From a virus: a stretch of DNA of 58,531 nt. Below are positions 5,497 to 54,603 of the stretch, piece after piece. The notes beneath the pieces were generated by a model. The model did no database searches. It worked only from the letters and a program-made list of their open reading frames with translations, and was not told the origin of the DNA. The stretch's first letter is position 1; the number at the start of each line of letters is the position of its first letter. The stretch spans positions 1 through 58,531 of the IMG/VR virus record IMGVR_UViG_3300032297_000473. One strand, given 5' to 3'. A program made the position numbers and the translations under genes.

Positions 5497-6261
5497 ATGA
5501 TTCATCTATCTGACCTATTACACGAAACAAAACTACCATCAAGTGAAATTGATATGGATGCTTATGCTCGTAAGTACTTGAAAACAATAGATTATCTAAA
5601 AAATAAGAAGAAAACATTATTACTTACAACTAGCAATAGATGGATACAACACAAAGATGATGTGCCAAAAAGTACTCAATTGGCATTAAAAATAAAAGAA
5701 ACTCTTGGAAGTGATAAAATAGTTCATCTTGATATTCCAAAATTAAATATTTTACCATGTGAAGGTAATGTTAGTAGCAACAAACAATTTGGTGGATATC
5801 ATTGCGGTACAAAAGAATCGGCATTAAAAGATAAAGAAAAAAATCCTACGGGAAATCATCGTTGTTGGTGTAGTTACAACAACAAAAATGATGAATTATG
5901 GAAAGTCAGTAAAGAACTTTTTGAATGTGATGCGGTTGTATTCTTTACAAGCATTAGATGGGGACAAGCCAATAGTTTTTACCAAAAATTAATTGAAAGA
6001 TTAAATTGGCTTGAAAGCCGACATGCTACATTGGGAGAAAGCAATATTGTTAAAAACATTGACGCTGGATTTATTGCAGTTGGTCAAAATTGGAACGGTC
6101 CAAGTGTTGTGAAAACTCAAAAACAAGTTTTTGAGTTTTTTGGATTCAATACTCCAAATGATTTGTTTTGGAATTGGCAATATACAAATGATCCGTGGGA
6201 TGAATCAAAACGTTCATATAATAATGCTTCTGGAGTTTTTAACGAAACATTTAAAATATAA
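5497..6261 (+). CDS. Flavodoxin-fold NAD(P)H-dependent oxidoreductase with a capsid-targeting-like leader
   Basis: The product has 254 residues. After the leader MIHLSDLLHE (predicted cut after E10), the chain shows a Rossmann/flavodoxin-like pattern: KTLLLTTSNRW at the first strand, a Cys-rich middle (CEGN ... YHCGT ... HRCWC), then DAVVFFTSIRWGQANSFYQK and ERLNWL. The RWG/ERL region is typical of the flavin-binding face of NADPH-dependent FMN reductases and related iron-sulfur flavoproteins. It would bind FMN and possibly a metal or Fe-S cluster through the Cys residues. The start at 5497 is preferred over an in-frame alternative start codon at 5473 because the latter lies within the terminator tail and because the leader then matches those of other genes. 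It stands alone between the sheath terminator and the terminase pair. Confidence 0.7.
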   Translation: MIHLSDLLHETKLPSSEIDMDAYARKYLKTIDYLKNKKKTLLLTTSNRWIQHKDDVPKSTQLALKIKETLGSDKIVHLDIPKLNILPCEGNVSSNKQFGGYHCGTKESALKDKEKNPTGNHRCWCSYNNKNDELWKVSKELFECDAVVFFTSIRWGQANSFYQKLIERLNWLESRHATLGESNIVKNIDAGFIAVGQNWNGPSVVKTQKQVFEFFGFNTPNDLFWNWQYTNDPWDESKRSYNNASGVFNETFKI

Positions 6262-6313
6262 AAAAATTATATAGATATTATTTTATATGTAATAAAGGCT
6301 GTTATAACAATTT

Positions 6314-7003
6314 ATGAAAAAAGCATCAGGAAAGAGTAATTTAAGTATTGTACGTGATTATCTTGAAGGAACAAGACCATTTATTCAAGTGGGATATGAC
6401 GAAAATGTGGCATTGCAAAGTAGAAAAGAAGGAGAAGAATGGGAGGACAGTAATGGTGTCAAATGGATAAAAAAGAATGGTTATAAACATCGTGTAAGCA
6501 AAAAGGCGCAATATGTTTTTGAACAACGTTGTACTGTTTGTAACGCTGACATGAAATGGGGAAATCATCTTGATCAAAAAATATATCCTAAAACACAACG
6601 TTGTTATGAATGCAATATTGAATTCGAATGCATTTTAAGAAGCACTGGTATTTATAATGATTATGAAAAATTTAAGATGATTAACAATGAATTATCAATG
6701 ATGAAGGATTTTAAATCAAAAGTTGTTGACAGTATTGCTTATCTTGAAAATTATACACCACAAAGCAAAAATCCTCAATTTTTTAACGAAGATGGCAGCA
6801 ATGAAATTTGGGTAGATGATACAGATAGACGTGAAATTGTATTGAAAGATTTGAAAGAAGATCTTGATAAAGTCAATAGTGGAATCGCATTAGCAGAAAG
6901 TGAATTGGTTAAATTAAATTATAACGTTGCTCTTGATCCAAATATTAATAAATTAACATTGAAAAAGATACAGGAAAAAGAGGAGAAATTGCAAAATGGC
7001 TGA
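6314..7003 (+). CDS. Zinc-finger protein in the small-terminase position
   Basis: The product has 229 residues. Paired CxxC motifs (C73-T-V-C76 and C97-Y-E-C100) separated by about 20 residues form a likely zinc ribbon. The C-terminal half (about residues 115-229) is charged and strongly helical, probably coiled coil (LKEDLDKVNSGIALAESELVKL). The stop overlaps the start of the large terminase gene by 8 nt, so the two are translationally coupled. In T4 the gene in this place encodes the small terminase gp16. This protein has no visible similarity to gp16, and the assignment rests on position and the helical C-terminus only. A DNA-binding or packaging-accessory role is the best guess. Confidence 0.5.
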   Translation: MKKASGKSNLSIVRDYLEGTRPFIQVGYDENVALQSRKEGEEWEDSNGVKWIKKNGYKHRVSKKAQYVFEQRCTVCNADMKWGNHLDQKIYPKTQRCYECNIEFECILRSTGIYNDYEKFKMINNELSMMKDFKSKVVDSIAYLENYTPQSKNPQFFNEDGSNEIWVDDTDRREIVLKDLKEDLDKVNSGIALAESELVKLNYNVALDPNINKLTLKKIQEKEEKLQNG

Positions 7004-8591
7004 AAAATCATTAAAAGAAATCATCAAAGAAGAGTATAAGAAATGTTTGGTTGATCCAATATATTTCATGAAGAAATATGTGAAGATTCAACATCCTATT
7101 CGCGGCACAATTAATTTTGATTTGTATCCTTTTCAAGAAGAAACATTAAGTGGATTGGTAGAAAATGATTTTAATATCATTTTAAAAAGTCGTCAAATGG
7201 GTATTAGTACATTGGTTGCCGCATATAGTTTGTGGCTAATGGTATTTCATACAGATAAAAATATTCGCTGTATTAGTATTACACAAGAAACAAGTAAAGA
7301 AATCGTTACGCGTGTTAGATTTGCTAATGATAATTTACCAGTTTGGTTGAAAGTACCCGTTGTTGAAAACAATCGTCTTTCTTTGGTATTAAAAAATGGT
7401 AGTACAATTAAGGCAGAAAGTAGTGCAGGTACAGCAGGACGTTCGGCGGCATTGTCATTACTAATTATTGACGAAGCTGCATTTATTGATAATATTGAAG
7501 AAATATGGTTGTCTGCTCAATACACATTGAGTACAGGTGGTCGTGCAATTGTTTTGAGTACACCAAATGGAGTTGGTAATTTCTTTCACAATACATGGGT
7601 TGACGCTGAAGCAAAGAAAAATAACTTTCATACAATTAAGTTGCCGTGGCATCTGCATCCAGAACGTGATCAAAAATGGCGCGATCAACAAACAGCTTTG
7701 AGTGGTGTAAAAGGTTCTGCACAAGAATGTGATTGTGATTTTAGTACTACCGGTAATACTGTAATTGATATTCCTACATTAGATTTTTACAAAAATGAAA
7801 AAGTTAAAGATCCAATAGAAATGCGTGGTATTGATAAAAGTTATTGGGTATGGGAATATCCAGATTATAGTCGCAGTTATATTGTTTGCGCTGACGTTGC
7901 CCGTGGAGATGGAGCCGATTATAGTGCATTTCATGTAATTGATATTGAAAGTTTCACGCAAGTTGCCGAATATCAAGGTCAAATTAATACTAAAGATTAC
8001 GGCAATATGTTGGTTAGTGTTGCAACCGAATACAACAATGCATTGTTGGTAGTTGAAAATGCAAATATTGGATGGGCAGTATTACAGCAAATTATTGATC
8101 GTGGTTATCCTAACACATTTTATAGCAGTGCTGATCTTCAATATGTAGATATTGAACGTCAGATATCAAACAAATTTAATGCTATGGAAAAGAAGATGGT
8201 GCCGGGATTTACTACAACAATGAAGACTCGTCCGTTGATTGTATCTCGTTTGGAAATGTATTTTAGAGAACGTAGCATTGAGGTTCGTTCGACAAGATTG
8301 GTAAACGAATTGAGAACGTTTATTTGGAATGGTAACAAACCAGAAGCATTGCCAAAATATCATGACGATCTTGTAATGTCATTTAGTATTGGTATGTGGG
8401 TACGTGATACTGCATTAAAATTGCGTCAACAAGGTGTTGATATCACTAAGAGTTTGATAAACAACATCAATAAGCTTGGAAATGCAGATCCGATTTATAA
8501 AACCGGAAATTTAACTGCTCAACAAGCATGGGAAATGAATATCGGAAAAACCGGTAATGATAAAAAAGAGTCTTTAAATTGGTTATTATAA
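6996..8591 (+). CDS. Large terminase subunit (T4 gp17-like ATPase-nuclease)
   Basis: This is the DNA packaging motor. The product has 531 residues. The N-terminal ATPase has a Walker A-type SRQMGIST (residues 65-72), Walker B LLIIDE (about 155-160) with catalytic Glu, and a coupling motif LSTPNG (187-192). The C-terminal RNase H-like nuclease has DVARGDGADYSAFHVID as its first acidic motif, VVENANIGWAVLQQI in the middle and the late acidic motif HDDLVMSF near residue 460. The length is close to T4 gp17 (610) without its N-terminal extension. AGGAG lies 10 nt before the ATG inside the upstream gene. The portal gene follows 15 nt later. Confidence 0.95.
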   Translation: MAEKSLKEIIKEEYKKCLVDPIYFMKKYVKIQHPIRGTINFDLYPFQEETLSGLVENDFNIILKSRQMGISTLVAAYSLWLMVFHTDKNIRCISITQETSKEIVTRVRFANDNLPVWLKVPVVENNRLSLVLKNGSTIKAESSAGTAGRSAALSLLIIDEAAFIDNIEEIWLSAQYTLSTGGRAIVLSTPNGVGNFFHNTWVDAEAKKNNFHTIKLPWHLHPERDQKWRDQQTALSGVKGSAQECDCDFSTTGNTVIDIPTLDFYKNEKVKDPIEMRGIDKSYWVWEYPDYSRSYIVCADVARGDGADYSAFHVIDIESFTQVAEYQGQINTKDYGNMLVSVATEYNNALLVVENANIGWAVLQQIIDRGYPNTFYSSADLQYVDIERQISNKFNAMEKKMVPGFTTTMKTRPLIVSRLEMYFRERSIEVRSTRLVNELRTFIWNGNKPEALPKYHDDLVMSFSIGMWVRDTALKLRQQGVDITKSLINNINKLGNADPIYKTGNLTAQQAWEMNIGKTGNDKKESLNWLL

Positions 8592-8606: not shown

Positions 8607-10490
8607 ATGCCTACAGATGAATTCAAAGAGTTGAAACAACGTTCGTTGTTTTCAAAATTAAGAAGATTATTTAGCACCGATGTAATTGTTCGTAATATTG
8701 GTGGTAAAAAACTAAAAGTAGTAGACACCGACGAATTAGCATACGCAACAGATCGTAATACATTACGTGATCGTTTCAATCGTATTCGTACAAGTGCCTA
8801 TAATCAATATAGCCGTGATTTCACACTGAGTTATCAAGCTGCTCGTATTGAATTGTTTCGTGATTACGACACAATGGATATGGACCCTATTATCAGCAGC
8901 GCATTAGATATTTATGCAGACGAGTGTTTAACTCAAAACGAATTGGGTGATATGCTAACAATTCGTAGCACCAATGATAACGTCAAACAAATTCTGCATA
9001 ATTTATTTTATGACATTTTAAATATTGAATTTAATTTGTGGAGTTGGACTCGTAACTTGGTAAAATACGGTGATTTTTACTTGAAAATGTATGTAAGCCC
9101 AGAATTTGGTGTTTACATGGTTGAACCAATTAGTAGCTACAATGTTACCCGTGTAGAAAACAGCGATTTAAATAATGAAAATTATATTAAATTTCAGGTA
9201 AATTTACCTGAAGGTGGCAAAATTGAAGAATTAGAAAATTATCAGGTTGCACATTTTCGTTTGTTGAGTGATAGTAATTTCTTACCTTACGGAAAAGGTA
9301 TTATTGAAGGTGCGCGTCGTGTTTGGAAGCAAGTTAGTTTGATGGAAGACGCAATGTTGATTCATCGTATCATGCGAGCACCTGAAAAACGCATTTACAA
9401 GGTTGATATTGGTAATATTCCTCCAAACGAAGTTGATCAATACATGGAAAAATTGATCAATAAGACTAAAAAGGTTCCTTATATTGATGAAAAGACTGGT
9501 GACTACAATCTTCGTTTCAATTTGTGGAACATGGTTGAAGATATTTATTTGCCTGTTCGTGGCAGTGATAGTGGAACCAGCATTGAGCCATTGAGCGGCA
9601 TGGAATTTACAGGTATTGATGATATTGAATATCTTCGCAACAAAATGATGGCTGCATTAAAGATTCCAAAGGCATTTTTGGGTTATGAAGAAGATTTGAG
9701 CGGCAAAGCTACATTGGCAGCAGAAGACGTTCGTTTTGCACGTACTGTTCAACGTGTTCAAAAATTTATTGTTAGTGAACTAACCAAAATTGCAATTGTT
9801 CATTTGTATTCACAAGGTTATCGTGATGCAGAATTGGTTGATTTTAGTTTGGAATTGACAAATCCATCTACTATTTTTGAAAAAGAAAAGGTTAGTGTCT
9901 GGCAAGAAAAAACCAGTTTGGCAAAAGATATGATTGATGCCAAAATTTATAGTCGTAAATGGATTCACACCACTGTATTCAATACCAGTGAAGATGATAT
10001 TGACACTATTAACAATGATATTGTTGAAGATGCAAAACAAGCATATCGTTTGAAGAAGATTGAAGAAGAAGGTATTGATCCAGCAAAACCATATAACAAA
10101 ATTAATGCCGGTGAAGAAAATGCCGGTGGCGCAACACCTGAACCCGGCGCAGCAGAACCAGAAGCAGCACCAGCAGAAACACCAGCAGAAACACCAGCAC
10201 CACCGGCAGGTGCAGGAGAAGCTCCATTAAAAGAACGTGATCAAACAGATCGTAAAAAGGCATCAAAATATCCATTTGGAGAAGATGTATTGGGTGATGG
10301 AGAAAATCGCCGTCGTTCAAATAAAACAACAACCAAACATCCTATTTCACATGCATACAAAAATAATAGTCCTTTGAGTTTTGAAGGATTGGATATGCAT
10401 CTTCGTGGAGATGGTACAAAATCAATTTTAAATGAAAGTATAGATTCAAAAAAGAAATCATTTTTGGATGAATCTAATATTATTGAGTAA
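8607..10490 (+). CDS. Portal vertex protein (T4 gp20-like)
   Basis: This is the dodecameric head-tail connector through which DNA enters and leaves the capsid. The product has 627 residues. Recognisable portal segments are RIELFRDYDTMDMDPIISSALDIYADE (about 75-105), the FLPYGKGIIEGARRVWKQ stretch (near 230), AMLIHRIMRAPEKRIYKVDIGN (near 255) and the long helix region KMMAALKIPKAFLGYEEDL (about 345-365). The last 130 residues carry a Pro/Ala/Glu-rich low-complexity extension (PEPGAAEPEAAPAETPAETP) and a basic, Ser/Asn-rich tail, both absent from T4 gp20. It follows the terminase directly, as in T4. Confidence 0.95.
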   Translation: MPTDEFKELKQRSLFSKLRRLFSTDVIVRNIGGKKLKVVDTDELAYATDRNTLRDRFNRIRTSAYNQYSRDFTLSYQAARIELFRDYDTMDMDPIISSALDIYADECLTQNELGDMLTIRSTNDNVKQILHNLFYDILNIEFNLWSWTRNLVKYGDFYLKMYVSPEFGVYMVEPISSYNVTRVENSDLNNENYIKFQVNLPEGGKIEELENYQVAHFRLLSDSNFLPYGKGIIEGARRVWKQVSLMEDAMLIHRIMRAPEKRIYKVDIGNIPPNEVDQYMEKLINKTKKVPYIDEKTGDYNLRFNLWNMVEDIYLPVRGSDSGTSIEPLSGMEFTGIDDIEYLRNKMMAALKIPKAFLGYEEDLSGKATLAAEDVRFARTVQRVQKFIVSELTKIAIVHLYSQGYRDAELVDFSLELTNPSTIFEKEKVSVWQEKTSLAKDMIDAKIYSRKWIHTTVFNTSEDDIDTINNDIVEDAKQAYRLKKIEEEGIDPAKPYNKINAGEENAGGATPEPGAAEPEAAPAETPAETPAPPAGAGEAPLKERDQTDRKKASKYPFGEDVLGDGENRRRSNKTTTKHPISHAYKNNSPLSFEGLDMHLRGDGTKSILNESIDSKKKSFLDESNIIE

Positions 10491-11949: not shown

Positions 11950-12432
11950 ATGTCGATTAGTTTAAAAAGACTAATAGAATTGGATAGTGAGCCGCAAGCA
12001 AAACAACCCGCTGCGGCTTATAATCCTATTGTTGCTCAACAACCAACACCACAAGGTCAGGAATTTAATGTTGGATTAGATTTTACTAATTTTGAGCGTA
12101 CAATTGCAGCGTTTACTGAAAACGCAAAAAATGCATTTCAACAAAAACTTATGAGTTTGGTTGGAAATAAAAAGGTATTTTTGCGTGGCAGTAAAGGTTA
12201 TGGTCAACCAATTAAAGATTATACTATCAATGTAAAAAGCGTTAGCATTGACTTTTATTATGAACGTTATGTTGTTGTTTTCAAAGATGAAAATGACAAA
12301 GAATACTTTTTAGAGCCGGGATACAAGATTAAAATCTTGGGTCAGGCACAAATTGTTCCAAAAACACCAAAGAAAAAAAAGAAGGAACAACCTCCGGTTG
12401 CACCAGTTCAACCAAATATTAATCCTAGATAA
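11950..12432 (+). CDS. Head-region protein with a capsid-targeting-like leader
   Basis: The product has 160 residues. The leader MSISLKRLIE fits the prohead protease consensus (L-I-E, cut after E10). It is followed by a Pro/Gln/Ala-rich linker, a folded part at about residues 35-135 with alternating beta strands (VKSVSIDFYYERYVVVFKDEN), and a basic, Pro-rich C-terminus (TPKKKKKEQPP). No known family is recognised. It lies directly before the protease gene, so it is probably a minor internal head protein processed during maturation. Confidence 0.5.
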   Translation: MSISLKRLIELDSEPQAKQPAAAYNPIVAQQPTPQGQEFNVGLDFTNFERTIAAFTENAKNAFQQKLMSLVGNKKVFLRGSKGYGQPIKDYTINVKSVSIDFYYERYVVVFKDENDKEYFLEPGYKIKILGQAQIVPKTPKKKKKEQPPVAPVQPNINPR

Positions 12433-12433
12433 T

Positions 12434-13051
12434 ATGAATAAAGAATTACTTGTTGATTGCATTTCGTTTGCAGTAAGCCGAGATGTCATAAATGAAATGA
12501 CAAATAGCGGCGGACCTTTTGTAGTAAAAGGTGTATTGCAACGTGCCAATGCAAAAAATCAAAATGGTAGAATTTATCCAAAAGCAATTTTGGAACGCGA
12601 AGCAGTAAAATATACTGAAAACTTTATCAAACAACGCCGTGCATTGGGTGAATTAGATCACCCTGAAACAAGTGTTGTTAATTTGCAAAATGTTAGTCAT
12701 AACGTTTTGGAAGTTCACTGGGAAGGTGATGATTTGGTAGGCAGTGTTGAAATCTTAACAACGCCAAGCGGCAATATTTTGCGCGAGTTGTTTAAAAGCT
12801 CAATCAATGTTGGCATTAGTAGTCGTGGTGTAGGTAGTGTAAAACGAAAAATGGCAGAAAGTGCAGATGAAGTTCAAGAAGACTTTGAATTAATTGCATT
12901 CGATTTCGTTAGTAACCCAAGCACACAAGGAGCATTTTTACATCCATCTGGCCAAATTCAAGAAGGTGTAAATACAGTTAAAAATCCAGTTACAAACAAA
13001 TGGGATAATGTAAATAATATTATTCGAGAAATCTTAGGAGAAATTAAATAA
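12434..13051 (+). CDS. Prohead protease (T4 gp21-like serine protease)
   Basis: This is the maturation protease that cleaves scaffold, capsid and internal head proteins at (L/I)-x-E sites. The product has 205 residues. Visible family features are the ANAKNQNGRIYPK stretch (about 39-50), the catalytic His in LGELDHPE (His76), and the catalytic Ser in INVGISSRG (Ser129/130). FELIAFDFVSNPS follows, as in the U9/S78-type proteases. The ATG at 12434 is used because it follows the upstream stop by 1 nt and gives the expected length. An in-frame start further upstream would lie inside the neighbouring gene. Its presence is the key support for reading the shared N-terminal leaders in this window as cleavable head-targeting signals. 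Confidence 0.93.
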   Translation: MNKELLVDCISFAVSRDVINEMTNSGGPFVVKGVLQRANAKNQNGRIYPKAILEREAVKYTENFIKQRRALGELDHPETSVVNLQNVSHNVLEVHWEGDDLVGSVEILTTPSGNILRELFKSSINVGISSRGVGSVKRKMAESADEVQEDFELIAFDFVSNPSTQGAFLHPSGQIQEGVNTVKNPVTNKWDNVNNIIREILGEIK

Positions 13052-13057
13052 AATAAT

Positions 13058-14290
13058 ATGGACCAATTAACCACAGATAAATTATTGGAAGAAGCTTTTG
13101 AGAAACTAAAATCAAAACTTTCCGGTGCAATGCATGCTGCTGGTCAATTTGTGAAAACCGGCAATGTTGGACTTGCAAAAACTAGTTATAGTGCTCAAAG
13201 TGTAGCAAAACGTGCAGAATTATTTAAACAAACAGTTGGTGATTATTTAAGTAAAATCGAACAATTTGATACTACTGGCGCAACTAAACTTAATACATTA
13301 TCTCACATCGGTCCTGTTGTAATTAAAAGCAAATCCACTGTAAATGAACCTGCGGATGGTCAACAATACACAACGTCCGCTGGACTTACTTATACCTATA
13401 ACGCTAAATCAAAATCTTGGTTTGATGCTGGTGGAAGAAAGATGGGAAATTCTCCAATGATGACCAAGAAGTTTTTAAAACAATATCCAAAGGGAGTTGT
13501 TAAAGAAATTACAAGTTTAAATGAAGCCGGTGAAGTATTTGCATACGAACGTGAAATTGAAAAGCAAATCAAATCTTTCATTACAGATTTGGCAACTCAA
13601 TTTAATGTAACAGGTAATAATACAAAAGAAATTCTTACTAATTTAGAAAAATTGCCAGCGGTTCCTGATTTAAAAAAAGCAGTCACTGAATTAAATGCTT
13701 TTATTAATGATCTGGGAACAAAGACAAAATTAACAATTAAACTTCCAGAAGTTAAAATTGCCGTTCCTGCTGCTAAACCTACATCAGCCGCAACGTCAAA
13801 AACTACATCAACAAAAGCTGCACCAGCAAAACCTACGTCTACATCAAATGCTCCGAAAATGGGAGATAATGTTGTGCTAGGAAATTATAAATTTACATTT
13901 GATGGCAAATCTTGGATTAGTCCAATCGATCATAAACCAGTAAAAGATGCAGGCATTCTTCGTGCTATTAATCTTCAGATTCTTAATAAGAAACCTGTAT
14001 CAAAGTCAAAGAAACCAGTTTCTAAAAAACCTACATCCACAGGTGGAACATCAACGGGTGGAACATCAAGCACACCGTCAGGTGGAGCACCAAAAGATGG
14101 CGCAATTGATGCGTCAAAAAAATATAAATTTGATGCTACTAAAGGATTATGGATTAATATTGCAACAAATACTGCATTGAGCAAATTTAATTCAGATAAT
14201 AAAACCAAAGCTTATTGGAAAGCAGTTGCAGCCAAAAAAATAGTTCCAGAAGGTAAAACTAAAATTACATATAAAGAGTTTTTCGTATAA
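13058..14290 (+). CDS. Modular head-region protein with three Trp-centred repeats
   Basis: The product has 410 residues. The N-terminus (MDQLTTDKLLEEAFEKL) contains LLE and LEE, possible prohead protease sites. Three divergent modules of about 40 residues follow the pattern hydrophobic-Y-x-(F/Y)-x-(A/G)-x-x-x-x-W: YTYNAKSKSWFDAGG (near 125), YKFTFDGKSWISP (near 280) and YKFDATKGLWIN (near 350). Thr/Pro/Lys/Ala-rich linkers join them (TSAATSKTTSTKAAPAKPTS). No known family is recognised. It lies between the protease and another small leader-bearing head gene, so a prohead core or internal protein role is likely. Confidence 0.5.
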   Translation: MDQLTTDKLLEEAFEKLKSKLSGAMHAAGQFVKTGNVGLAKTSYSAQSVAKRAELFKQTVGDYLSKIEQFDTTGATKLNTLSHIGPVVIKSKSTVNEPADGQQYTTSAGLTYTYNAKSKSWFDAGGRKMGNSPMMTKKFLKQYPKGVVKEITSLNEAGEVFAYEREIEKQIKSFITDLATQFNVTGNNTKEILTNLEKLPAVPDLKKAVTELNAFINDLGTKTKLTIKLPEVKIAVPAAKPTSAATSKTTSTKAAPAKPTSTSNAPKMGDNVVLGNYKFTFDGKSWISPIDHKPVKDAGILRAINLQILNKKPVSKSKKPVSKKPTSTGGTSTGGTSSTPSGGAPKDGAIDASKKYKFDATKGLWINIATNTALSKFNSDNKTKAYWKAVAAKKIVPEGKTKITYKEFFV

Positions 14291-14310: not shown

Positions 14311-14796
14311 ATGATCACCTTAAAGAAAATTATTGAAGGAGTTGAACAAGAATCTTCTGTAGATACCAACGAATTGAGTGGTATGATGGGACAATCACCT
14401 ACTACATGGGATACGCCAAAAGCATATGCTCCTGCTGGTTCTCCGGTTCGTACAAATGAAGCATTGCCTTCAAAAAAATTGACCGCTGAAGAAAAGCGTA
14501 AATTACTTGGTATGATTGGTCAATTTAACGAATATCGTCGTGCTATGAAGATGGCTGACGAATTGAAACAAGTTGCTGAAAATATTGTTTATATTGCTGA
14601 AATGACTGAAAAATACGGTTTGAATGAAACAAGCGAATGGTTTGAAGGAGTAACGTTGGAACGTGATATGAAAGAAATAAAACGCTATGCAAGTGACCTG
14701 CATAAGATTGCTACTAAAGTTCATCCACAAGTTGAACAAGCTGAAGCAATATACGAAGAAATTGGACTAAAGTTAGAAAGATATTTTAATCTATAA
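14311..14796 (+). CDS. Helical head-region protein with a capsid-targeting-like leader
   Basis: The product has 161 residues. The leader MITLKKIIE (I-I-E, cut after E9) matches the pattern shared by many proteins here. After a Ser/Pro/Thr-rich linker (about residues 14-50), the rest is helical and charged (about 55-161), with probable coiled coil. There are no Cys and no catalytic motif. It ends at a bidirectional terminator. A prohead-core or packaged internal-protein role is inferred from leader and position. Confidence 0.5.
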   Translation: MITLKKIIEGVEQESSVDTNELSGMMGQSPTTWDTPKAYAPAGSPVRTNEALPSKKLTAEEKRKLLGMIGQFNEYRRAMKMADELKQVAENIVYIAEMTEKYGLNETSEWFEGVTLERDMKEIKRYASDLHKIATKVHPQVEQAEAIYEEIGLKLERYFNL

Positions 14797-15217: not shown

Positions 15218-15703
15218 TTATTTATTCATTAATAGAGCGTCTGTGAAAAAATTATAAATGTTGCTCAAGAAATTTGGAATATTTGCATTTTTGTCAAATG
15301 GACTTCCTGAGCGGCTAAACACTGCGCCGGGTTTATCTATATCTTCTCGTTTAGTAAATGCAACATACCACATGACATATTTATATTCATTAGAATTTTG
15401 TGGATTTGCAATTTTTCTAATGGCAAAATGAAAATTTGTTGGAGATTGATTAATTTCAAATTGAATAGTATTATTTGTAAAATCCGCCGAATCTAAATTA
15501 TATCTACTTTTAATTGCTGCTTTAATTTTTTCAAGTTCTTGAGGACCAATCGGATAAGGACGATTATGTCCTTTTTGTAATACAGCAGTCAAATTGGTAT
15601 CATCTGCTTCTTTTGTTTCAACATAAGAAGATTCTATCAACATATTTTCCAACAATACCTTTTTGATATATTGCTTCAATGATTGTTTTTGTTTTTCAGT
15701 CAT
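15218..15703 (-). CDS. Hypothetical minus-strand protein with a capsid-targeting-like leader
   Basis: The product has 161 residues. The N-terminus QSLKQYIKKVLLENMLIE has two possible (L/I)-x-E sites (LLE and LIE) after a basic amphipathic helix, a longer form of the leader seen elsewhere. The body (about residues 30-161) is alpha/beta, with RPYPIGPQELEKIKAAIKSR and KYVMWYVAFTKREDID. No family is recognised. A TATTTAT box in its own orientation sits 4 nt before the ATG. It is probably a packaged protein like the plus-strand leader-bearing genes. Confidence 0.55.
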   Translation of the reverse strand: MTEKQKQSLKQYIKKVLLENMLIESSYVETKEADDTNLTAVLQKGHNRPYPIGPQELEKIKAAIKSRYNLDSADFTNNTIQFEINQSPTNFHFAIRKIANPQNSNEYKYVMWYVAFTKREDIDKPGAVFSRSGSPFDKNANIPNFLSNIYNFFTDALLMNK

Positions 15704-15850: not shown

Positions 15851-17014
15851 ATGTCAAAATTATTACAAGAAGCACTCGCTGACGCAAAAGCCGTTAAGCG
15901 TATTGCTATTGAAAATGCTAAAGTAGCATTAGAAGAAACATTCCAACGTGAAGTCACCGGAATGTTCCAAGAAAAAATCAAAGAAGAATTGGCCAACGAA
16001 GAAACCTACGGTGTAGGTGATCAAAGTGGCGGTCTTCAAGGATCCAGTGATATTGGTGGAACTGTTGGTGGTAGCAAAAAGCCATCTGCAAAAGCACATC
16101 AAACATCAACTAAGGTTGTAGCTCAACCAAGAGAAAAATTCTTTGAAGAAGCTGAAGAAGATGAAGAATCACTTCATGCTGAAGGTGGTCCTCACCAAAC
16201 TCAATTCGAAGCTTCAGAAGAAGAAGCTGTTCATGATGAAACAATTACCAATCAAGAATTGGAAGAAATCTTGAGTAGCTTGGAAGAAGAATTAGATGAA
16301 GAAGGTGAAGTAGCACCAGCACCAGCACCAGTTGATCCAATGGCACAAGCTCCTGCTCCAATGGCTCCTGCTCCCGTTGATCCAAATGCTCCAGTAGCTG
16401 CTCAACCTCCAGTTGATCCAAATGCTCCTGCTGCTCCAGTTGCTCCTGCTCCAATGGCACAAGCACAACCTCCAGTTGCTGAAGAAGAAGAAAGCATGGA
16501 AGAAATCAGCCTCGACGAACTTTTGAGTGAAATCGGTGCTGAAGAAAGCTTGGAAGAAGCTAAGGCAGAAGACGAAGAAGAAGAAGATAAAGAAGAAGAA
16601 GACGATTTGAAGGAAGAAAATACCTCACTTCGTACCCAATTGAGCGAACACATTAAAGTCATTGAATATTTGCGTGAACAAATCAATGAAATTAATTTGT
16701 TGAATGCAAAATTATTGTATACCAACAAGTTGTTTAAGCAATTTGGTTTGAATAACTCACAAAAATTGAGCATTGTTGAAAAATTCGACTTGGCAAGCAC
16801 AGTACGTGAAGTCAAGTATGCATACACAATTTTAGCCGAATCATTAAGTTCCGGTGCATCAACAGTCAAGAAGACTAATACTGTTGCAAAATCTATCACC
16901 GAAGGTTTGGCAAGCAAAGCAGTTGCATCCACAAAACCATCAAAAGATGTAATTGTTGAAAACACTAACGAGATGGCTTTGAGATTCCAAAGACTCGCCG
17001 GAATCAAGAAGTAA
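15851..17014 (+). CDS. Prohead core scaffold protein (T4 gp22-like)
   Basis: This is the internal scaffold around which the capsid shell assembles; it is later cut up by the prohead protease. The product has 387 residues and is very acidic. The N-terminal helix MSKLLQEALADAKAVKRIA carries L-Q-E followed by A, a protease-type site. The middle is Pro/Ala/Met/Gln-rich low complexity (about residues 155-215), then Glu/Asp runs (about 240-255). The C-terminal part is helical (LREQINEINLLNAKLLYTNK ... LNNSQKLSIVEKFDLASTV) and ends in MALRFQRLAGIKK, as is typical of gp22-type scaffolds. It sits directly upstream of the capsid gene and has AAAGGA 7 nt before the ATG. Confidence 0.88.
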   Translation: MSKLLQEALADAKAVKRIAIENAKVALEETFQREVTGMFQEKIKEELANEETYGVGDQSGGLQGSSDIGGTVGGSKKPSAKAHQTSTKVVAQPREKFFEEAEEDEESLHAEGGPHQTQFEASEEEAVHDETITNQELEEILSSLEEELDEEGEVAPAPAPVDPMAQAPAPMAPAPVDPNAPVAAQPPVDPNAPAAPVAPAPMAQAQPPVAEEEESMEEISLDELLSEIGAEESLEEAKAEDEEEEDKEEEDDLKEENTSLRTQLSEHIKVIEYLREQINEINLLNAKLLYTNKLFKQFGLNNSQKLSIVEKFDLASTVREVKYAYTILAESLSSGASTVKKTNTVAKSITEGLASKAVASTKPSKDVIVENTNEMALRFQRLAGIKK

Positions 17015-17063: not shown

Positions 17064-18809
17064 ATGAGTGATATTAAGTCATTATTGACAAACAACATGA
17101 ACCCACAAGCACGTTTGATGCAGGAAACTCGTCAATTGCAAAGCAAGTGGGATAAAACTGGTCTTCTTGAAGGATTGGGCGGCGTAGAAAAAGCCAATAT
17201 GTCCATCTTGCTTGAAAACCAAGCAAAGCAATTGCTTGATGAAGCAACTGCTACAGGCACATCAGCAAACAGTGAACAATGGGCTGGCGTAGCTCTTCCA
17301 TTGGTTCGCCGTGTATTTGCTGAAATTAGCGCAAAGGAATTCGTTTCAGTACAACCAATGAATTTGCCAAGCGGTTTGATCTTCTATTTGGATTTCAAAT
17401 ATGGTTCAACCAACGGTGGATTTAATGCTGATACAACCAGCAGCTACAGTTCATTGTTCGGCGGAACAGGTAAGAAGCTTGGTTCAACTGATAGTGCAAC
17501 TGGTGGTTTGTATGGTGTAGGTCGTTATGGTTATTCTGTAAACGATACCACTGTTACTGTTGCTGCTGCAACAGGTAGTAGTTTGGGTGCTGCTGGTCTT
17601 TATTTCACCACTGCATCATATAGTGATGTAGATTATGATCAAGCATATAGTTCAAGTATTGTTTCTAAAGAAATCTACAAAGTTGTAATTAACTTGGGTG
17701 ATAATGGAACAACTTCAACAAATCCAAATTATGCTTCAATTAGCAATGCTGATTTAAATGCAGTACGTAGTTTCACATTTACATCGGCATCAATTACACA
17801 ATTACCAAATTTCAATGTAGCATACAATACTGGTAGTTTGGCAAATCCACAATATCAAATCGCATTGTTCTTCAGCGGTGCTGCTGCTATTCTCGGTGGA
17901 TTTAAAGTAACCGGATCATTGATGTATAGTAAGCAACCAACTGATACAACCCGTGGTGACTTCGAAGACAAGAATCCATTCAGTGGTACTGGTACAAGTG
18001 GTATTAACCAAGGTACTGATATCGGTATTCCAGAAATTAATTTGGAATTGAAGAGTGAACCTATCGTTGCTAAGACACGTAAATTGAAAGCCGTTTGGAC
18101 TCCTGAATTGGCTCAAGATTTGAACGCTTACCATAGCATCGATGCAGAAGCAGAATTGACTGCTTTGTTGAGCGAATACGTCTCAATGGAAATCGACTTG
18201 GAAATCCTCGACATGTTAATTACTGCTGCTCCGGGTGTAACAACTCAAGCATGGAGTGCTAAGATCGGTAATGAATTGGCAGTTAACTTGGATAACTTCG
18301 GTAATATGAATAGTATTACTTTGAGCACCGATGCAAACAACAAGACTGCATATGTTAAGAGCACTTGGTTCCAAACCTTGGGTAACAAGATTCAACGTGT
18401 ATCTAACAAGATTCACCAATTGACTCTTCGTGGTGGTGCTAACTTCTTGGTCGTAAGTCCAGATGTTGCAACTATCTTGGAAAGTATTCCGGGCTATGTA
18501 GTAAATACTGATGGTGATAGTGCTAAGTTCGCAATGGGTGTAAGTCGTGTTGGTAGCTTCGCAAGTCGCTTCCAAGTTTACAAGAACCCATATATGGTTG
18601 AAAACGTAATCTTGGTTGGTTTCCGTGGAAATAACTTCCTCGAAACCGGTGCAGTTTATGCTCCATATATCCCACTCGTACAAACTCCATTGGTATACGA
18701 TCCAATTAACTTCACACCACGTCGTGGAGTATTGACTCGTTATGCGAAAAAGGTAATCCGCCCCGAATTTTATGGAAAAGTATATATTGGTGATCTTGAC
18801 CAAGTATAA
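17064..18809 (+). CDS. Major capsid protein (T4 gp23-like)
   Basis: This forms the hexamers of the icosahedral head (HK97 fold). The product has 581 residues. The N-terminal propeptide region ends at about residue 60 in KQLLDE followed by ATATG, an L-D-E site equivalent to the E65 cut in T4 gp23. The mature part begins ANSEQWAGVALPLVRRVFAE and continues with the conserved VSVQPMNLPSGLIFYLDFKYG. The C-terminal part has MEIDLEILDMLI, VSPDVATILESIPGY and PYIPLVQTPLVYDP. The gene has AAGGA 9 nt before its ATG, very regular codon use (TTG leucine) and a strong terminator, consistent with high expression. Confidence 0.95.
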   Translation: MSDIKSLLTNNMNPQARLMQETRQLQSKWDKTGLLEGLGGVEKANMSILLENQAKQLLDEATATGTSANSEQWAGVALPLVRRVFAEISAKEFVSVQPMNLPSGLIFYLDFKYGSTNGGFNADTTSSYSSLFGGTGKKLGSTDSATGGLYGVGRYGYSVNDTTVTVAAATGSSLGAAGLYFTTASYSDVDYDQAYSSSIVSKEIYKVVINLGDNGTTSTNPNYASISNADLNAVRSFTFTSASITQLPNFNVAYNTGSLANPQYQIALFFSGAAAILGGFKVTGSLMYSKQPTDTTRGDFEDKNPFSGTGTSGINQGTDIGIPEINLELKSEPIVAKTRKLKAVWTPELAQDLNAYHSIDAEAELTALLSEYVSMEIDLEILDMLITAAPGVTTQAWSAKIGNELAVNLDNFGNMNSITLSTDANNKTAYVKSTWFQTLGNKIQRVSNKIHQLTLRGGANFLVVSPDVATILESIPGYVVNTDGDSAKFAMGVSRVGSFASRFQVYKNPYMVENVILVGFRGNNFLETGAVYAPYIPLVQTPLVYDPINFTPRRGVLTRYAKKVIRPEFYGKVYIGDLDQV

Positions 18810-19679: not shown

Positions 19680-20102
19680 ATGATAAAATTGACAAAATTA
19701 TTATTTGAAATTATACAAAGAAGATCAACCCGTTCATGGTTATCTCCGTCTGGAATTTTTTTTGCAACTGTTGACGACGATGGAAATATAGTAAGTCACG
19801 AAACAACCGCAATTGATATATTAGATTATTTAAAAACCCACGCAGAAGATAAAGACATAATTAATGAAACGGCAAGTTCAATTTTATTTAAAAGCGGGTA
19901 TCATCGCATTGTGATGGGTAGTCAAGGGCAGTATTTACCACATGTTTTAATATGTAATAATCCTTTTAAAAAACCAAATAGAAAACAGATGTCAGAATTA
20001 ATAGATTTAGCAATTGAAAATCAAATAAATACTATCATGTACGACGATGGAACTTCAAAGGGTTATGTAAAAAACGTAATTTGGTCCAATACAGACATAT
20101 AA
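19680..20102 (+). CDS. Unknown protein with a capsid-targeting-like leader
   Basis: The product has 140 residues. The leader MIKLTKLLFE fits L-F-E (cut after E10). The body starts RRSTRSWLSPSGIFFATVDDDGN and has SGYHRIVMGSQGQYLPHVLICN. The YHR(I/V)(V/I)MG string recurs in the small protein at 22492. A helix and a short beta end (TIMYDDGTSKGYVKNVIW) follow. No family is recognised. It is the first of six consecutive small genes between two homing endonucleases and is inferred to be a packaged head cargo protein. Confidence 0.5.
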   Translation: MIKLTKLLFEIIQRRSTRSWLSPSGIFFATVDDDGNIVSHETTAIDILDYLKTHAEDKDIINETASSILFKSGYHRIVMGSQGQYLPHVLICNNPFKKPNRKQMSELIDLAIENQINTIMYDDGTSKGYVKNVIWSNTDI

Positions 20103-20151: not shown

Positions 20152-20925
20152 ATGATTAAATTAAAATCTTTATTGTTAGAATATATTAATAAACCGGTTT
20201 CAGTTTTAAAAAGATATATTACAAAAACAGAAGAAGAAAGAAAAATAGAATTGGGATTACATGAGGACTGTCTTGAATTTTTAGGAATTTATTATCCGAG
20301 TATTTATCAACAATACAAAAATAATGATTATGGAGAATCTTCTGAATTATTGATGAAAGAATATCCTGAAATTTTTAAAAAATGGTGTAATTTTTTGTAT
20401 AAAAAGCATAGATCATATGATGATTTTGAACCGGGTTATCCAACATGGAATTATGTAGAATATAGATCAATTGTTAAAAATCAATGGTTGATTCATTTTA
20501 GTGACACAGCACAAAATATTTATTATGATCAAAGATTTAGTCGTGGTGTAGATGATTATACAAGATTAGGATTGACTACTAGTTTATCAGAAAATGAAAA
20601 AGATTTTGGAGGATATAATTTTGGTTATTTATTAAGTGATTATCAGAGATATGGAAAGGAACGTAAGCGATTCAAATATGGAAAAGAAGCTGTATTATTT
20701 AAAGCAAGTGGAATACAGGTTTGGCATTATAGTGATAGTGAGCCGCAAGTAATTTTTTGGGGGCCGAGCGCATTTGATATTGTCTATATTAGAGAAGATC
20801 GTAATACAGGAGATTATTATGTATATAGTAGAAAACATAATAGTCCATTTAGTGGAGATTTTGATGATTGTGTAGATTGGGTAATAAACAATTTTAATCA
20901 ATATAAACGCATATTATTGCCCTAA
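20152..20925 (+). CDS. Possible ADP-ribosyltransferase with a capsid-targeting-like leader
   Basis: The product has 257 residues. The leader is MIKLKSLLLE (L-L-E). A helical N-terminal part (to about residue 105) precedes a C-terminal domain with the order of motifs seen in ART-fold proteins: a buried-strand His in QWLIHFSD (His115), an Arg-Gly turn (RG, 131-132), the aromatic-rich stretch GGYNFGYLLSDYQRYGKE (153-170), and a terminal strand EPQVIFWG (Glu197) followed by AFDIVYIRE. The H-Y-E order matches NAD-dependent ADP-ribosyltransferases, but spacing is loose and no signature is decisive. T4 packages the ART Alt in its head, which makes this reading attractive. The target is unknown. Confidence 0.5.
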   Translation: MIKLKSLLLEYINKPVSVLKRYITKTEEERKIELGLHEDCLEFLGIYYPSIYQQYKNNDYGESSELLMKEYPEIFKKWCNFLYKKHRSYDDFEPGYPTWNYVEYRSIVKNQWLIHFSDTAQNIYYDQRFSRGVDDYTRLGLTTSLSENEKDFGGYNFGYLLSDYQRYGKERKRFKYGKEAVLFKASGIQVWHYSDSEPQVIFWGPSAFDIVYIREDRNTGDYYVYSRKHNSPFSGDFDDCVDWVINNFNQYKRILLP

Positions 20926-20945: not shown

Positions 20946-21557
20946 ATGAAATTAACTGACATCGTTGAAAATATTGTTCATCCAGCAGAACCTATGAAAT
21001 TAATAAAGGAGGTTACTGTTAGTCCAAATTTAAAATATCATTTGGATAGAAATTTAACTCTTGAAGAATGTGTATTTCGTAATTATAGCGAGGCATATTT
21101 TAATTTGATCAATGAAATTCGTGCATTATATAACGATGATGCTATTGAATTAAATGAGTATGATGCAGACATTGTTGAAAGTGATTTGGGAGAAACTGCT
21201 GAATATGAAGGACGCACTGTATATTTGGATGCTCCTATTGAAGAGGAACTTGATGAACAATTGATGTTGGAAGCAAAACATCGTGGAAAAACTGTTAAAT
21301 TGAACAGACCATTTAGAACTCCCGGTGGCCCAAAGAAATTTGCTGTTTATGTAAAAAGCAAAAAAGGAAAAATCAAAAAAGTAACATTTGGTGATCCTAA
21401 AATGCGTGTTCGTGCCAGTAGCAAGGCTCGCCGCAAGAGCTTTTCTGCCCGACATAAATGTAGTCAAAAGAAAGATCGTACAACAGCAGGTTATTGGAGT
21501 TGCCGCAGTCATCGTATTCGTAGTTTGGGAACCAAAAGCAAAGGTAAATACTGGTGA
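20946..21557 (+). CDS. Acidic/basic bipartite phage protein (DUF5872-like C-terminus) with leader
   Basis: The product has 203 residues. The leader MKLTDIVE fits I-V-E (E8). Residues up to about 115 are acidic. The remainder is strongly basic and conserved-looking: KLNRPFRTPGGPKKFAVYVK, VTFGDPKMRVRASSKARRKS, FSARHKCSQKKDRTTAGYWS and CRSHRI. I recognise this as a family common in phages with no known function (DUF5872-type; from memory). The two Cys with nearby His could bind metal. A basic domain behind an acidic, possibly removable, N-terminal half is the arrangement expected of an internal protein that must bind packaged DNA. LMLE followed by AK at the boundary is a near match to the protease consensus. 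Confidence 0.65.
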   Translation: MKLTDIVENIVHPAEPMKLIKEVTVSPNLKYHLDRNLTLEECVFRNYSEAYFNLINEIRALYNDDAIELNEYDADIVESDLGETAEYEGRTVYLDAPIEEELDEQLMLEAKHRGKTVKLNRPFRTPGGPKKFAVYVKSKKGKIKKVTFGDPKMRVRASSKARRKSFSARHKCSQKKDRTTAGYWSCRSHRIRSLGTKSKGKYW

Positions 21558-21560: not shown

Positions 21561-21902
21561 ATGATTAAACTCAGAGATTTAATTTTAGAAAATTCAAACA
21601 ATGTAGTATATCATCTGACTAAAAAATCTAATTTATCTAGTATTAAGAAAGATGGATTAAAACCAAATTTACCGGTTGATATGCCAACTGAAGATGAGGG
21701 TGTGTATGTATTTAAAACTAAAGAATATGCAGAAGATGCATTGATGAATTGGTATGGAGACAGATTTGATGAAGATGAAGAATTTGTATTATTGACCATC
21801 AAAACAGATGGATTGCAATTATTTTCAACACTTGTTGATTGGGAATATATTTCATACACAACCATACCAGCATCCAATATTATCAAGATAGAAAACATAT
21901 GA
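21561..21902 (+). CDS. Small ADP-ribosyltransferase-like protein with a capsid-targeting-like leader
   Basis: The product has 113 residues. After the leader MIKLRDLILE (I-L-E), the whole chain follows a compact ART-fold pattern: VVYHLTKKSNLSSIKKDGLK (His18 in the first strand, then the Ile/Gly-Leu helix end), GVYVFKTKEYAEDAL (47-61, Tyr49 and the following helix), LLTIKTDGLQL (77-87), and a final WEYISYTTIPASNIIKI with Glu95. This is the layout of short ART-like and KptA-like domains. Its stop overlaps the next start (ATGA), so the next two ART-like genes are translationally coupled. Confidence 0.62.
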   Translation: MIKLRDLILENSNNVVYHLTKKSNLSSIKKDGLKPNLPVDMPTEDEGVYVFKTKEYAEDALMNWYGDRFDEDEEFVLLTIKTDGLQLFSTLVDWEYISYTTIPASNIIKIENI

Positions 21903-40979: not shown

Positions 40980-41564
40980 ATGATCTATCTACAGGATATT
41001 TTAAAAGAAGTTACAGACGCTAATTTATTAGAGCAAGATTTGAGCCGTATCATATATGTTGATTTGGATGGTGTACTGGTAGATTTTGATCGTGGCTTCA
41101 AAGACATTTCAGACGGAATAGATAAATATGACTATGTTAAAAAGCATGGTGTTGATAAGTTGTGGAAATTAATCAATTCATACGGCCAAGAATGGTGGGA
41201 AAATTTAAATTGGATGCCTGATGGAACAAAACTTTGGTCGGCAATTTCAAACAAAAACGTAAAGGTGCTAACGAGCGGAAGTACTCGTAACACAGGAACA
41301 ATGGCTATCAATGGAAAAAAGAAATGGGTAGCAGATCATTTGGGACCGATTGAAACCATTGTCGTAAACAGTAGCCATGAAAAACAAAAATACGCACGTC
41401 CCGGTGATATTTTAATAGACGATTTATACAGCAACATTAGTGAATGGACTGTAAAAAATGGAATTGGTATTTTGCATCGCAATGCAGAAGAAACAATCAA
41501 TAAATTAAACGATGTTATAAATACTCAAAATGAAACCTACGGTTATAGTTGGTCAAACGTATGA
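40980..41564 (+). CDS. HAD-superfamily phosphatase/nucleotidase with a capsid-targeting-like leader
   Basis: The product has 194 residues. The leader is MIYLQDILKE (L-K-E, E10). The HAD core follows: motif I IIYVDLDGVLVDFD (nucleophile and acid-base Asp pair), motif II VLTSGST, motif III Lys in HEKQKYA, motif IV ILIDDLYSN. The short cap (ISDGIDKYDYVKKHGVDKLW ... WWENLNWMPDG) resembles phage-type 5'-nucleotidases. It is predicted to dephosphorylate a nucleotide or other small phosphate ester. The stop overlaps the nucleotidyltransferase start (ATGA), suggesting the two act together. Confidence 0.82.
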   Translation: MIYLQDILKEVTDANLLEQDLSRIIYVDLDGVLVDFDRGFKDISDGIDKYDYVKKHGVDKLWKLINSYGQEWWENLNWMPDGTKLWSAISNKNVKVLTSGSTRNTGTMAINGKKKWVADHLGPIETIVVNSSHEKQKYARPGDILIDDLYSNISEWTVKNGIGILHRNAEETINKLNDVINTQNETYGYSWSNV

Positions 41565-42904: not shown

Positions 42905-43234
42905 ATGAAAATAACCCGCAATTATTTAAAATCTATAATTCAAGAATGCTTGAATGAAATTTTATCGGAGCAAGATATAACAAATCCAGTGGCATCCGAT
43001 CCTAAAGTTCAGATTGCTGTAAAAAATAAAGCGGTAGCAGATAGAAAAGTTGCTGACGCTGAAATAACTGCCTTAAACTTACAAATTAGAAACGCATCAA
43101 ATCAAGAACGTCAAGCGAATGATCCTAAAGAAAAAGAAGCATTACGAGATAAAACCCAAAACTTTAAAGATCAATTAGCTGCTGCTAAATTGCGTAAAAC
43201 AACTGCAAACAAAATGCAAACGGCTGCAAAATAA
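42905..43234 (+). CDS. Small helical protein with a capsid-targeting-like leader
   Basis: The product has 109 residues. The N-terminus MKITRNYLKSIIQECLNEIL has I-I-Q-E and later L-S-E, candidate prohead protease sites. The rest is a charged, Ala/Lys/Gln-rich helix, probably coiled coil. The ATG at 42905 is preferred to an upstream in-frame start, which lies inside the terminator. It is a candidate internal head protein that sits, unusually, in the tail gene block. No family is recognised. Confidence 0.5.
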   Translation: MKITRNYLKSIIQECLNEILSEQDITNPVASDPKVQIAVKNKAVADRKVADAEITALNLQIRNASNQERQANDPKEKEALRDKTQNFKDQLAAAKLRKTTANKMQTAAK

Positions 43235-52114: not shown

Positions 52115-52115
52115 T

Positions 52116-53910: not shown

Positions 53911-53917
53911 TATTTAT
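53911..53917 (+). promoter_or_regulatory. TATTTAT box, 5 nt before the ATG at 53923
   Basis: The box lies in the 30-nt gap after the polymerase gene. A TATAAT string at 53888-53893 overlaps the polymerase stop but has no convincing -35 partner. Confidence 0.4.
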
Positions 53918-53922
53918 TATGG

Positions 53923-54603
53923 ATGAAAGAAATCTATAATAAAGTTTTGGAAGCGGTCGCAATTGATCCTCGTTTAGACACAGGTATTTTTGATGTATTA
54001 AACAATGATCATTTGTCTATTTTTCGTGAATATCTAGTAAAAGAAGGTATTTCTGAAGATACCGCTATTGCTGCCAGCAACAAATTGGCAGAAGCGGGTA
54101 GATTTCCAGAGCGACAAGCTTATAATAAAGATGGTTTGTTGGTAACATTTCCTTCAGCCGAACACAAACAACGTGCAATTGCTAGAGGATCTCATTTTGA
54201 GAGAAATCCAAAATCAGCACAGGTAAATATTTTTGGTGCTGAAACACAACCTCAACAACAAGCACCAGCACAACAAGCACCAGCACAACAAGCAGTTGCG
54301 CCTGCAACTGTTGCTAAACCCGCTGCGCCCACACAAGCACCCGTTACACAGTCAGTTGCTACAACGCAATCTGCGGATGTTACTCCTGTAAATGCTGATA
54401 ATCGTACACCAGAAGAAAGAGCGGCAGACGCAAATGCGGTGGAAAAAATGTTAAAGACTGAAGGAAAGTCATATACTTTATCCGAAGCAATTGCATTTGG
54501 TTTCTACTCAAAGAACAATATATGGTATACATCGGATGGTGAAAAAGTTGGTCGCTTGTGGTATGTGGCAGATCGCAAACAACAAATTATATTGCCATGT
54601 TAA
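53923..54603 (+). CDS. Virion-type protein with a leader-like N-terminus, in the replication block
   Basis: The product has 226 residues. The start MKEIYNKVLE resembles the head-targeting leader, though P3 is Val. A helical domain (to about 65) leads to the conserved-looking GRFPERQAYNKDGLLVTFPS AEHKQRAIARG segment, which I associate with a phage protein of unknown function. A Gln/Ala/Pro-rich linker (about 105-150) follows, then a small C-terminal domain SYTLSEAIAFGFYSKNNIWY whose Trp-centred pattern recalls the modules of the head-region protein at 13058. Its stop overlaps the next gene (ATGTTAA). It may be a packaged protein expressed from a late-type box in an otherwise early region. Confidence 0.5.
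   Translation: MKEIYNKVLEAVAIDPRLDTGIFDVLNNDHLSIFREYLVKEGISEDTAIAASNKLAEAGRFPERQAYNKDGLLVTFPSAEHKQRAIARGSHFERNPKSAQVNIFGAETQPQQQAPAQQAPAQQAVAPATVAKPAAPTQAPVTQSVATTQSADVTPVNADNRTPEERAADANAVEKMLKTEGKSYTLSEAIAFGFYSKNNIWYTSDGEKVGRLWYVADRKQQIILPC

Follow-up and report, generated by a model that had tools for sequence, protein, structure and literature searches.

We analysed the window, a 58.5-kb virus record (IMG/VR record IMGVR_UViG_3300032297_000473, positions 1 to 58,531), in which nine genes encode proteins that begin with a short amphipathic leader ending in (L/I)xE. The first-pass annotation had read this leader as a probable head-packaging signal of the phage T4 kind, and the sequence tests below support that reading through conserved T4 positions, Glu-specificity, viral bias, a sharp boundary and a kept (L/I)xE where the leader is replaced. 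All nine N-termini that it quoted were recovered exactly, each opening an ATG-started open reading frame (ORF) on the plus strand: MIHLSDLLHE (5497..6261), MSISLKRLIE (11950..12432), MITLKKIIE (14311..14796), MIKLTKLLFE (19680..20102), MIKLKSLLLE (20152..20925), MKLTDIVE (20946..21557), MIKLRDLILE (21561..21902), MILLKTLLLE (21899..22495) and MIYLQDILKE (40980..41564).

The window was assigned to a T4-like phage by PHROG profile matches to gp17, gp20, gp21 and gp23. On the plus strand were found a gp17-type large terminase (6996..8591; phrog_2, E 1.1e-42), a gp20-type portal protein (8607..10490; phrog_213, E 1.3e-59), a gp21-type head maturation protease (12434..13051; phrog_207, E 7.6e-51) and a gp23-type major capsid protein (17064..18809; phrog_138, E 2.1e-70). 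The closest annotated relatives by the portal were Microcystis phage Mel-JY01 (54.5% identity, residues 10-493) and Flavobacterium phage immuto (51.2%). The protease showed 27% identity with T4 gp21; His76 and Ser129/Ser130, residues of a kind that we take to be catalytic, were invariant, and the enzyme is presumed to cleave after (L/I)xE. The capsid protein contains candidate propeptide sites at E36, E51 and E60. A gp22-type scaffold candidate (15851..17014, plus strand) contains 17 [LI]xE sites, compared with 8.1 in shuffled sequences, and gave no PHROG profile match. Hence, of the protease, capsid and scaffold proteins reported earlier for this DNA, the first two were confirmed by profile and the third is assigned from its position before gp23 and its composition.

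Leader pattern in the window and in related records

Chance occurrence was estimated with 56 hand-listed window genes, against a background of 17,025 windows taken from the interior of their proteins. An [LI]xE motif with Glu at residue 8-10 was observed in 11 of the 56 genes, whereas 1.8 were expected (P=1.6e-6); two of the 11 (6996 and 40332) were outside the first-pass list and are not leader-like. When at least four hydrophobic residues were also demanded, eight genes remained (0.52 expected, P=5.5e-8). Because this pattern was derived from the same data, independent tests were added.

In T4, ten residues suffice as the capsid-targeting sequence (CTS) of IPIII; residues 4 and 7 are important for targeting, residues 8 and 10 for processing, and gp21 cleaves after (L/I)xE (PMC9026906). 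From this published mutational result we built the pattern CTS10, requiring hydrophobic residues at positions 4 and 7, L/I at position 8 and Glu at position 10, which matched 6 of the 56 window genes (0.08 expected). Six of the nine leaders conform to it, the exceptions being 14311 (E9), 20946 (E8) and 11950 (Ser at 4). In T4 itself CTS10 was found in ipII, ipIII, gp24 and an ORF at 18966 (4 vs 0.34 expected), and it missed Alt and ipI, the propeptides of which differ. Among other records the counts were 5 in G001, 7 in G003, 8 in G019, 10 in G023, 12 in G034, 6 in G014, 3 in G013, 4 in Mel-JY01 and 3 in immuto; CTS10 was absent from crAss001 and SPO1, neither of which shows a gp21 match. At the level of sequence, the conserved leader positions thus coincide with the residues to which mutational work on the T4 CTS attributed targeting and cleavage.

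As a control for circularity, 2,646 genes were called in 15 records with a simple caller of our own, and 84 were selected by their first four residues alone (M[IVL]xL, the choice at residue 3 being limited). Glu was present at residue 10 in 60% of these genes, compared with 7% of the 2,562 others; L or I occupied residue 7 in 74% and residue 8 in 74%, and composition was near background from residue 11. In a similar set of 80 genes, residue 10 carried 1.84 bits of information, compared with 0.23 for residue 11. Five of the 15 records had been obtained via the leader pattern. In nine records chosen by gp21 or portal similarity, with the window excluded, Glu10 was found in 14 of 33 selected genes vs 41 of 1,133 others (P=2e-11); two of the nine (G001 and G003) are close relatives of the window, with gp21 98-99% identical.

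Two other observations were set aside. Alignment A1 showed I2, L4, L8 and E10 at 90% or more; it was not counted as evidence because the pattern by which most of its members were selected fixed those residues. The leader-like MSKFSFLYE of a head-completion protein in G019 was judged to be a chance match, as Glu scored at the projected place in 0 of 15 family rows; L178 has a nearby Glu without L/I before it, and the family served as a natural negative.

Glu-specificity and viral bias of the leader

A DNA pattern for M-I-K-[LF]-K-x-[LF]-[LF]-[LF]-E gave at least 120 stretches in viral contigs of IMG/VR. The permuted pattern gave 8, a Glu-to-Lys version 24, and the bacterial and archaeal genomes (257 billion bases) 40. 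A real ORF start was defined as at least 50 residues with an in-frame stop within 25 codons upstream. By this definition 115 of the 127 viral stretches among the matches listed opened an ORF, vs 0 of 8 for the permuted pattern, 3 of 24 for Glu-to-Lys (P=2e-14) and 2 of 40 in bacteria and archaea. The leader is therefore Glu-specific, and it opens ORFs far more often in viral contigs than it does in bacterial genomes.

The T4-style pattern MKxFxxFLxEA also gave at least 120 matches in viral contigs, 107 of the 120 listed being at ORF starts. After length filtering, the matches listed comprised 109 proteins in 26 body families; because one family holds 77 of these proteins, the breadth is modest. 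Leaders of the MKxFxxF type ending in LxE or IxE, seen at G005:1348-2454, Melnitz 12203-13288 and T4 18966-19130 and abundant in IMG/VR, form a parallel tag class. By eye, locus L568, a HAD-like body with a T4-style leader, resembles HAD bodies that carry an MIKLK leader elsewhere.

Replacement of the leader with retention of the (L/I)xE site

The 20152 family comprises 26 related loci, of which 12 were aligned with the window protein; the remainder are near-duplicates or are cut by contig ends, except L391 and L395. The leaders were 10-27 residues long and differed in sequence, and (L/I)xE stood directly before the body in 13 of 13 aligned members, the window protein included. Of the records of this family searched for gp21, 7 of 15 were positive. 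L395, from a 331-kb record without a gp21 or gp23 match, has no (L/I)xE at the junction.

The same comparison was extended to 26 cargo families, from which the 189 ten-residue leaders themselves, 48 weak-family rows and 9 same-leader rows with an upstream start were dropped. In the resulting 77 non-leader junctions, related sequences included, Glu was exactly at the projected place in 46 (5.2 expected); [LI]xE was found in 25 (0.94 expected) and [LIVM]xE in 38 (1.41 expected). Counted per family, 15 of the 26 had at least one exact [LIVM]xE.

Bodies behind the leader

Clustering of 216 leader proteins gave 114 body families, chance matches included; three leader genes spanning the ends of sequence pieces were left out of this clustering. 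In the sampled phages, 82 BLAST-level body families had an MI-type leader that was clear, and for 43 of these at least one member came from a whole record and not from the pattern scan. Scanning of the 82 representatives gave 38 Pfam families at E 0.01, mostly with one member each. The 25 families listed of these 38 include ART-PolyVal (three members), NUDIX, zeta toxin kinase, NT5C, tRNA nucleotidyltransferase with HD, PRTase, GNAT, KptA, metallopeptidases and chitinase, and HAD-like bodies are also among the cargo. Individual scans of 20 cargo proteins gave no family for 11, and PADLOC gave only scattered single matches on the cargo set. One leader-tagged protein among the members of A1 matches sigma-70 region 2 (E 3.2e-5); judged from this match, a head-packaged sigma factor is possible.

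In the window, three bodies resemble ADP-ribosyltransferases to differing degrees. The model of 21561 (predicted local distance difference test score, pLDDT, 69.4; below 50 at leader residues 1-11) matched Tpt1 in Foldseek (E 5.6e-5) and reached Z 11.5 in VIA (root-mean-square deviation 3.1, 94 aligned residues); as modelled, this cargo candidate is a KptA/Tpt1-like ADP-ribosyltransferase (ART) fold. The cargo candidate at 21899 is ART-PolyVal-like by PF18760 (E 1.6e-5), at 26.1 bits below the curated cut-off of 31.2, and its leader is retained in homologues down to 64% identity. The third, 20152, is a cargo candidate by its conserved junction. Its AlphaFold2 model had a pLDDT of 82.6, residues 1-10 being the sole segment below 50. 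By title, 47 of 50 VIA rows belonged to the ART superfamily, but Z was at most 4.8 and Foldseek gave no match at E<=0.001; assignment to a family by sequence was abandoned, since Pfam gave a single match below threshold (E 0.041) and neither a PHROG family nor a PDB sequence match was found. The model is suggestive of an ART, perhaps of a very divergent fold. The bodies had been described as unrelated; 21561 and 21899, however, are both ART-like, and 20152 perhaps is too.

Junctions in polyvalent fusion proteins

In relatives, cargo domains for which other records have separate tagged genes were found fused into chains of up to 1,636 residues; G013:114560 (1392 residues) and G006:34603 (1636 residues) each contain at least two. 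Such multi-domain polyvalent fusions were seen only in relatives, none in the window. In the large fused proteins at G013:114560-118738, G019:115790-118849 and G006:34603-39513, a junction Glu, often within (L/I/V/M)xE, matches the leader Glu of the single genes. Among 50 internal junctions (residue 30 or later), [LI]xE lay within four residues of the projected Glu in 24 (4.9 expected). A strict set, limited to proteins of at least 350 residues in which 80 or more residues precede the junction, comprised 17 junctions, drawn from 11 proteins of 8 families. In this set Glu was exact in 11 of the 17 (1.1 expected), [LI]xE was present in 5 (0.19 expected) and [LIVM]xE in 10. Examples are LYLNE|DLTKDD, KFISE|SIEIPI and SDLKE|APRVPR. 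Read from the sequences, the junction Glu suggests that these are polyproteins cleaved by the head protease.

Relation of leader genes to gp21

The sample for co-occurrence consisted of the 25 distinct leader records that reach 40 kb in a listing of 80 pattern loci, and control contigs were obtained with a meaningless 15-mer and the permuted pattern. The gp21 gene was detected in 9 of the 25 leader contigs, and gp23 in those same nine. At 90 kb or more, 8 of 10 leader contigs carried both genes, two of the eight (G012 and G021) looking like one phage; gp21 was found in 2 of 13 control contigs and in 0 of 2 of that length. Because the differences from controls were not significant, the co-occurrence across related phages that the first-pass annotation proposed as a check is only suggestive. 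Leader genes were closer to gp21 than random genes at P<0.05 in 7 of 10 records (P=0.12 in the window itself) and often stand in tandem, as at 231004-237744 of G034.

According to the same annotation, finding the leader in phages lacking a gp21-type protease would refute the packaging reading. No clear case was encountered: in the two long leader contigs without gp21 (G013 and G014), gp23 was not found either. G013 is a 125-kb fragment. G014 ends 191 bases past a gene (205684-206838 of 207029) of the family annotated as head completion in immuto; given the gene order of the window, its head module would lie past the contig end.

Individual leader genes and neighbouring features

The cargo candidates at 5497 and 19680 match CTS10. 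The body of 5497 resembles FMN_red (NADPH-dependent FMN reductase) weakly and below the cut-off (E 0.0043); three homologues keep E10 and one at 48% identity has a different N-terminus. For 19680, neither a Pfam or PHROG family nor a homologue among the proteins compared was found. The cargo candidate at 20946 (phrog_7595, E 7.3e-16) combines an LxE-studded N-terminal part with a basic C-terminal domain: its nine [LI]xE motifs (2.3 in shuffles) all fall inside residues 1-104, and a homologue at 36% identity begins with MIKLKDILLE. It is perhaps a shredded propeptide joined to a DNA-binding head protein. The basic domain matches proteins of Pelagibacter, Methylophilales and Roseobacter phages. 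The cargo candidate at 40980 is a 5'(3')-deoxyribonucleotidase (NT5C) by PF06941 (E 1.9e-8) and phrog_2643 (E 9.1e-26), and homologues that carry other N-termini were found.

Two of the nine genes lie among the head genes. The leader of the head-module protein at 14311 recurs in homologues as MINLKNILEE (G004), MAKLKNILQE (G019) and TKLKELLYE (L139), and homologues in Mel-JY01, G006 and G034 are without it. The protein at 11950, located between portal and protease, has a doubtful leader.

Four related but longer or weaker forms had also been listed, and these fared unequally. At 15218..15703 (minus strand), a possible cargo with a longer leader ending in LLE19, a 36% homologue has ILKE directly before the aligned part. 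The weak form MKEIYNKVLE at 53923..54603 (plus strand) has a 29% homologue with YILSE at about the aligned place. The possible longer amphipathic leader at 42905..43234 (plus strand) is kept in one 55% homologue. The fourth, at 13058..14290 (plus strand), is unsupported and its leader is doubtful, the homologues found sharing the C-terminal part only. The N-termini of 42905-43234 and 15218-15703 resemble a second, longer type (MKITxxxLKxII.. and ..LKQYIKKVLLE), which may be another leader class.

Two homing-endonuclease-like genes (GIY-YIG type by eye; 18935-19666 and 22774-23589) stand on either side of the cargo cluster that follows gp23 and may help to mobilise the cargo genes. A small protein encoded at 382-828, upstream of the gene at 2155, contains repeats that by eye are imperfect and some 19-20 residues long. 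TATTTAT boxes lie no more than about 30 bases ahead of the start codon in some leader genes and some structural genes (e.g. 5497, 20152, 20946, 42905 and 44373) and are possibly a late promoter whose transcripts have a very short 5' leader. As a mark of leader genes, a TATTTAT/TATAAATA box in the 30 bases before the gene was found for 4 of 7 leader genes and 10 of 49 others in the window, and for 0 of 10 in G019, 0 of 4 in G013 and 0 of 5 in Mel-JY01; because it is inconsistent among records, it was not used.

Interpretation of the leader

Taken together, these findings make it very probable that the leader is a T4-type CTS, serving as a general address tag for effectors that are packaged, cut by the gp21-type protease and injected. 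We infer docking, cutting, packaging and injection by analogy with T4. Late in infection, the amphipathic helix, through its hydrophobic residues 4 and 7, would dock the tagged protein on the prohead core. The gp21-type protease would then cleave after (L/I)xE at residues 8-10 and release the body in the maturing head, and the freed body would be delivered with the DNA into the next host. The tag would serve a set of effectors comprising ADP-ribosyltransferases and other enzymes.

Several results weigh against this reading. CTS10 is absent from S-PM2, G006, G007 and G009 and non-significant in G004, G005, HTVC008M, Melnitz, phiM12 and RM378, although gp21 is present in all of them; because of these records, the MIKL-type expansion is regarded as confined to some of the T4-like phages. 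Among the records chosen by gp21 or portal, six are more distant, and in these enrichment of Glu10 was weak (3 of 15 vs 27 of 829, P=0.014). Of the 8 N-termini that align with 11950 from residue 1, its own included, 6 retain Glu10 and the other two have Asp and Lys, and Glu is missing from the projected place in 31 of the 77 non-leader junctions. L391 has LGE near the junction, although no match to gp21 or gp23 was found in its 455-kb record. Finally, no gp21 was seen in 16 of the 25 leader contigs, many being fragments, and co-occurrence was not significant against the small control (9/25 vs 2/13, P=0.17; at 90 kb or more, 8/10 vs 0/2, P=0.09).

Targeting and cleavage might both take place while the bodies mainly act in the head, as core or size factors or structural internal proteins, and are not injected. 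The position of 14311 and, doubtfully, 11950 in the head-core gene module would suit this, as would the link of T4 IPIII to head assembly (PMC9026906). However, most bodies with clear profiles are enzymes that have no role in the capsid (ART, Nudix, zeta kinase, NT5C, tRNA nucleotidyltransferase and PRTase), and the cargo set varies between relatives, so that we consider this explanation unlikely. The tag might instead only target, with Glu kept for binding and another protease, or none, acting. Targeting and cleavage are separable in T4, since a CTS with Asp at position 10 targets and yet is unprocessed (PMC9026906), and P3 is often V at other junctions here (11 of the 46 with Glu); recurrence of Glu at inter-domain junctions far from the N-terminus (11 of 17), where a targeting helix is unneeded, makes this a distinctly poor candidate. 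Short amphipathic N-terminal helices are common and co-occurrence with gp21 was not significant in our sample, but a membrane- or host-machinery-binding helix or a translation-start effect unrelated to packaging is highly improbable, given that Glu-to-Lys abolishes the enrichment at ORF starts (115 of 127 among the matches listed vs 3 of 24), that (L/I)xE persists as the helix changes in length and sequence (13 of 13) and Glu recurs within fusions (11 of 17), and that only 2 of 40 bacterial or archaeal matches start an ORF.

If the leader is a packaging tag of this kind, its cut site may extend to the fused proteins. We regard the chances as evenly balanced that polyvalent proteins of T4-like phages are packaged polyproteins, whose leader and (L/I/V/M)xE domain junctions would be cut by the gp21-type protease in the prohead, with leader and linker interchangeable and effectors shuttling between tagged genes and fusions. 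Excerpts of Iyer et al. 2017 (PMC5512222) ascribe the processing of polyvalent proteins to internal metallopeptidase domains, and head-protease processing is not proposed in those excerpts.

The sets of proteins injected by phages are known for very few phages. If the tag with (L/I)xE marks cargo, the injected arsenals of uncultured T4-like phages would be readable from sequence, many unknown proteins would gain a place and time of action (head cargo in the first minutes of infection), and polyvalent proteins would gain a processing mechanism. The natural leaders also offer a choice for research on protein delivery in phage heads.

Comparison with known systems

Literature searches gave no match to two leader strings, and the excerpts returned contained no description of such a cargo set. 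The nearest system is the CTS of T4 IPIII and IPII, reportedly described by Mullaney and Black in 1996. Both share ten residues, hydrophobics at 4 and 7, I/L at 8, Glu10, a gp21-type protease and exchangeable bodies (PMC9026906). The T4 sequence is MKTYQEFIAE whereas the consensus here is MIKLKxLLxE, and T4 has few internal proteins whereas 82 body families, tandem cargo genes and junction sites in fusions were found here. T4 Alt, a head-packaged and injected ADP-ribosyltransferase, likewise is an ART enzyme with a short N-terminal propeptide; the candidates here are ARTs of the KptA/Tpt1-like and PolyVal types, which are encoded side by side in a single cluster and carry a ten-residue leader.

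In phage P1, an N-terminal signal sends the anti-restriction protein DarB, and a reporter, to the capsid; there the first 30 residues suffice, and this was shown for one protein (PMC9024508). In SPN3US and phiKZ, the prohead protease trims N-terminal propeptides of ejection proteins after Glu, but these are often longer than 100 residues, and no shared short tag is described in the excerpts of that source (PMC5694885). Polyvalent proteins (PMC5512222) and head-packaged NAD/ADPr enzymes (PMC9503650) have the same kinds of effector domain, and their packaging was predicted from neighbourhood or fusion in the excerpts of these sources, whereas here a head-protease-like site is found at the junctions and a sequence tag on single cargo. 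What is added here to these systems is a sequence tag as a very broad cargo marker, a leader that can be exchanged while its cut site stays fixed, and sites at the junctions of polyvalent proteins.

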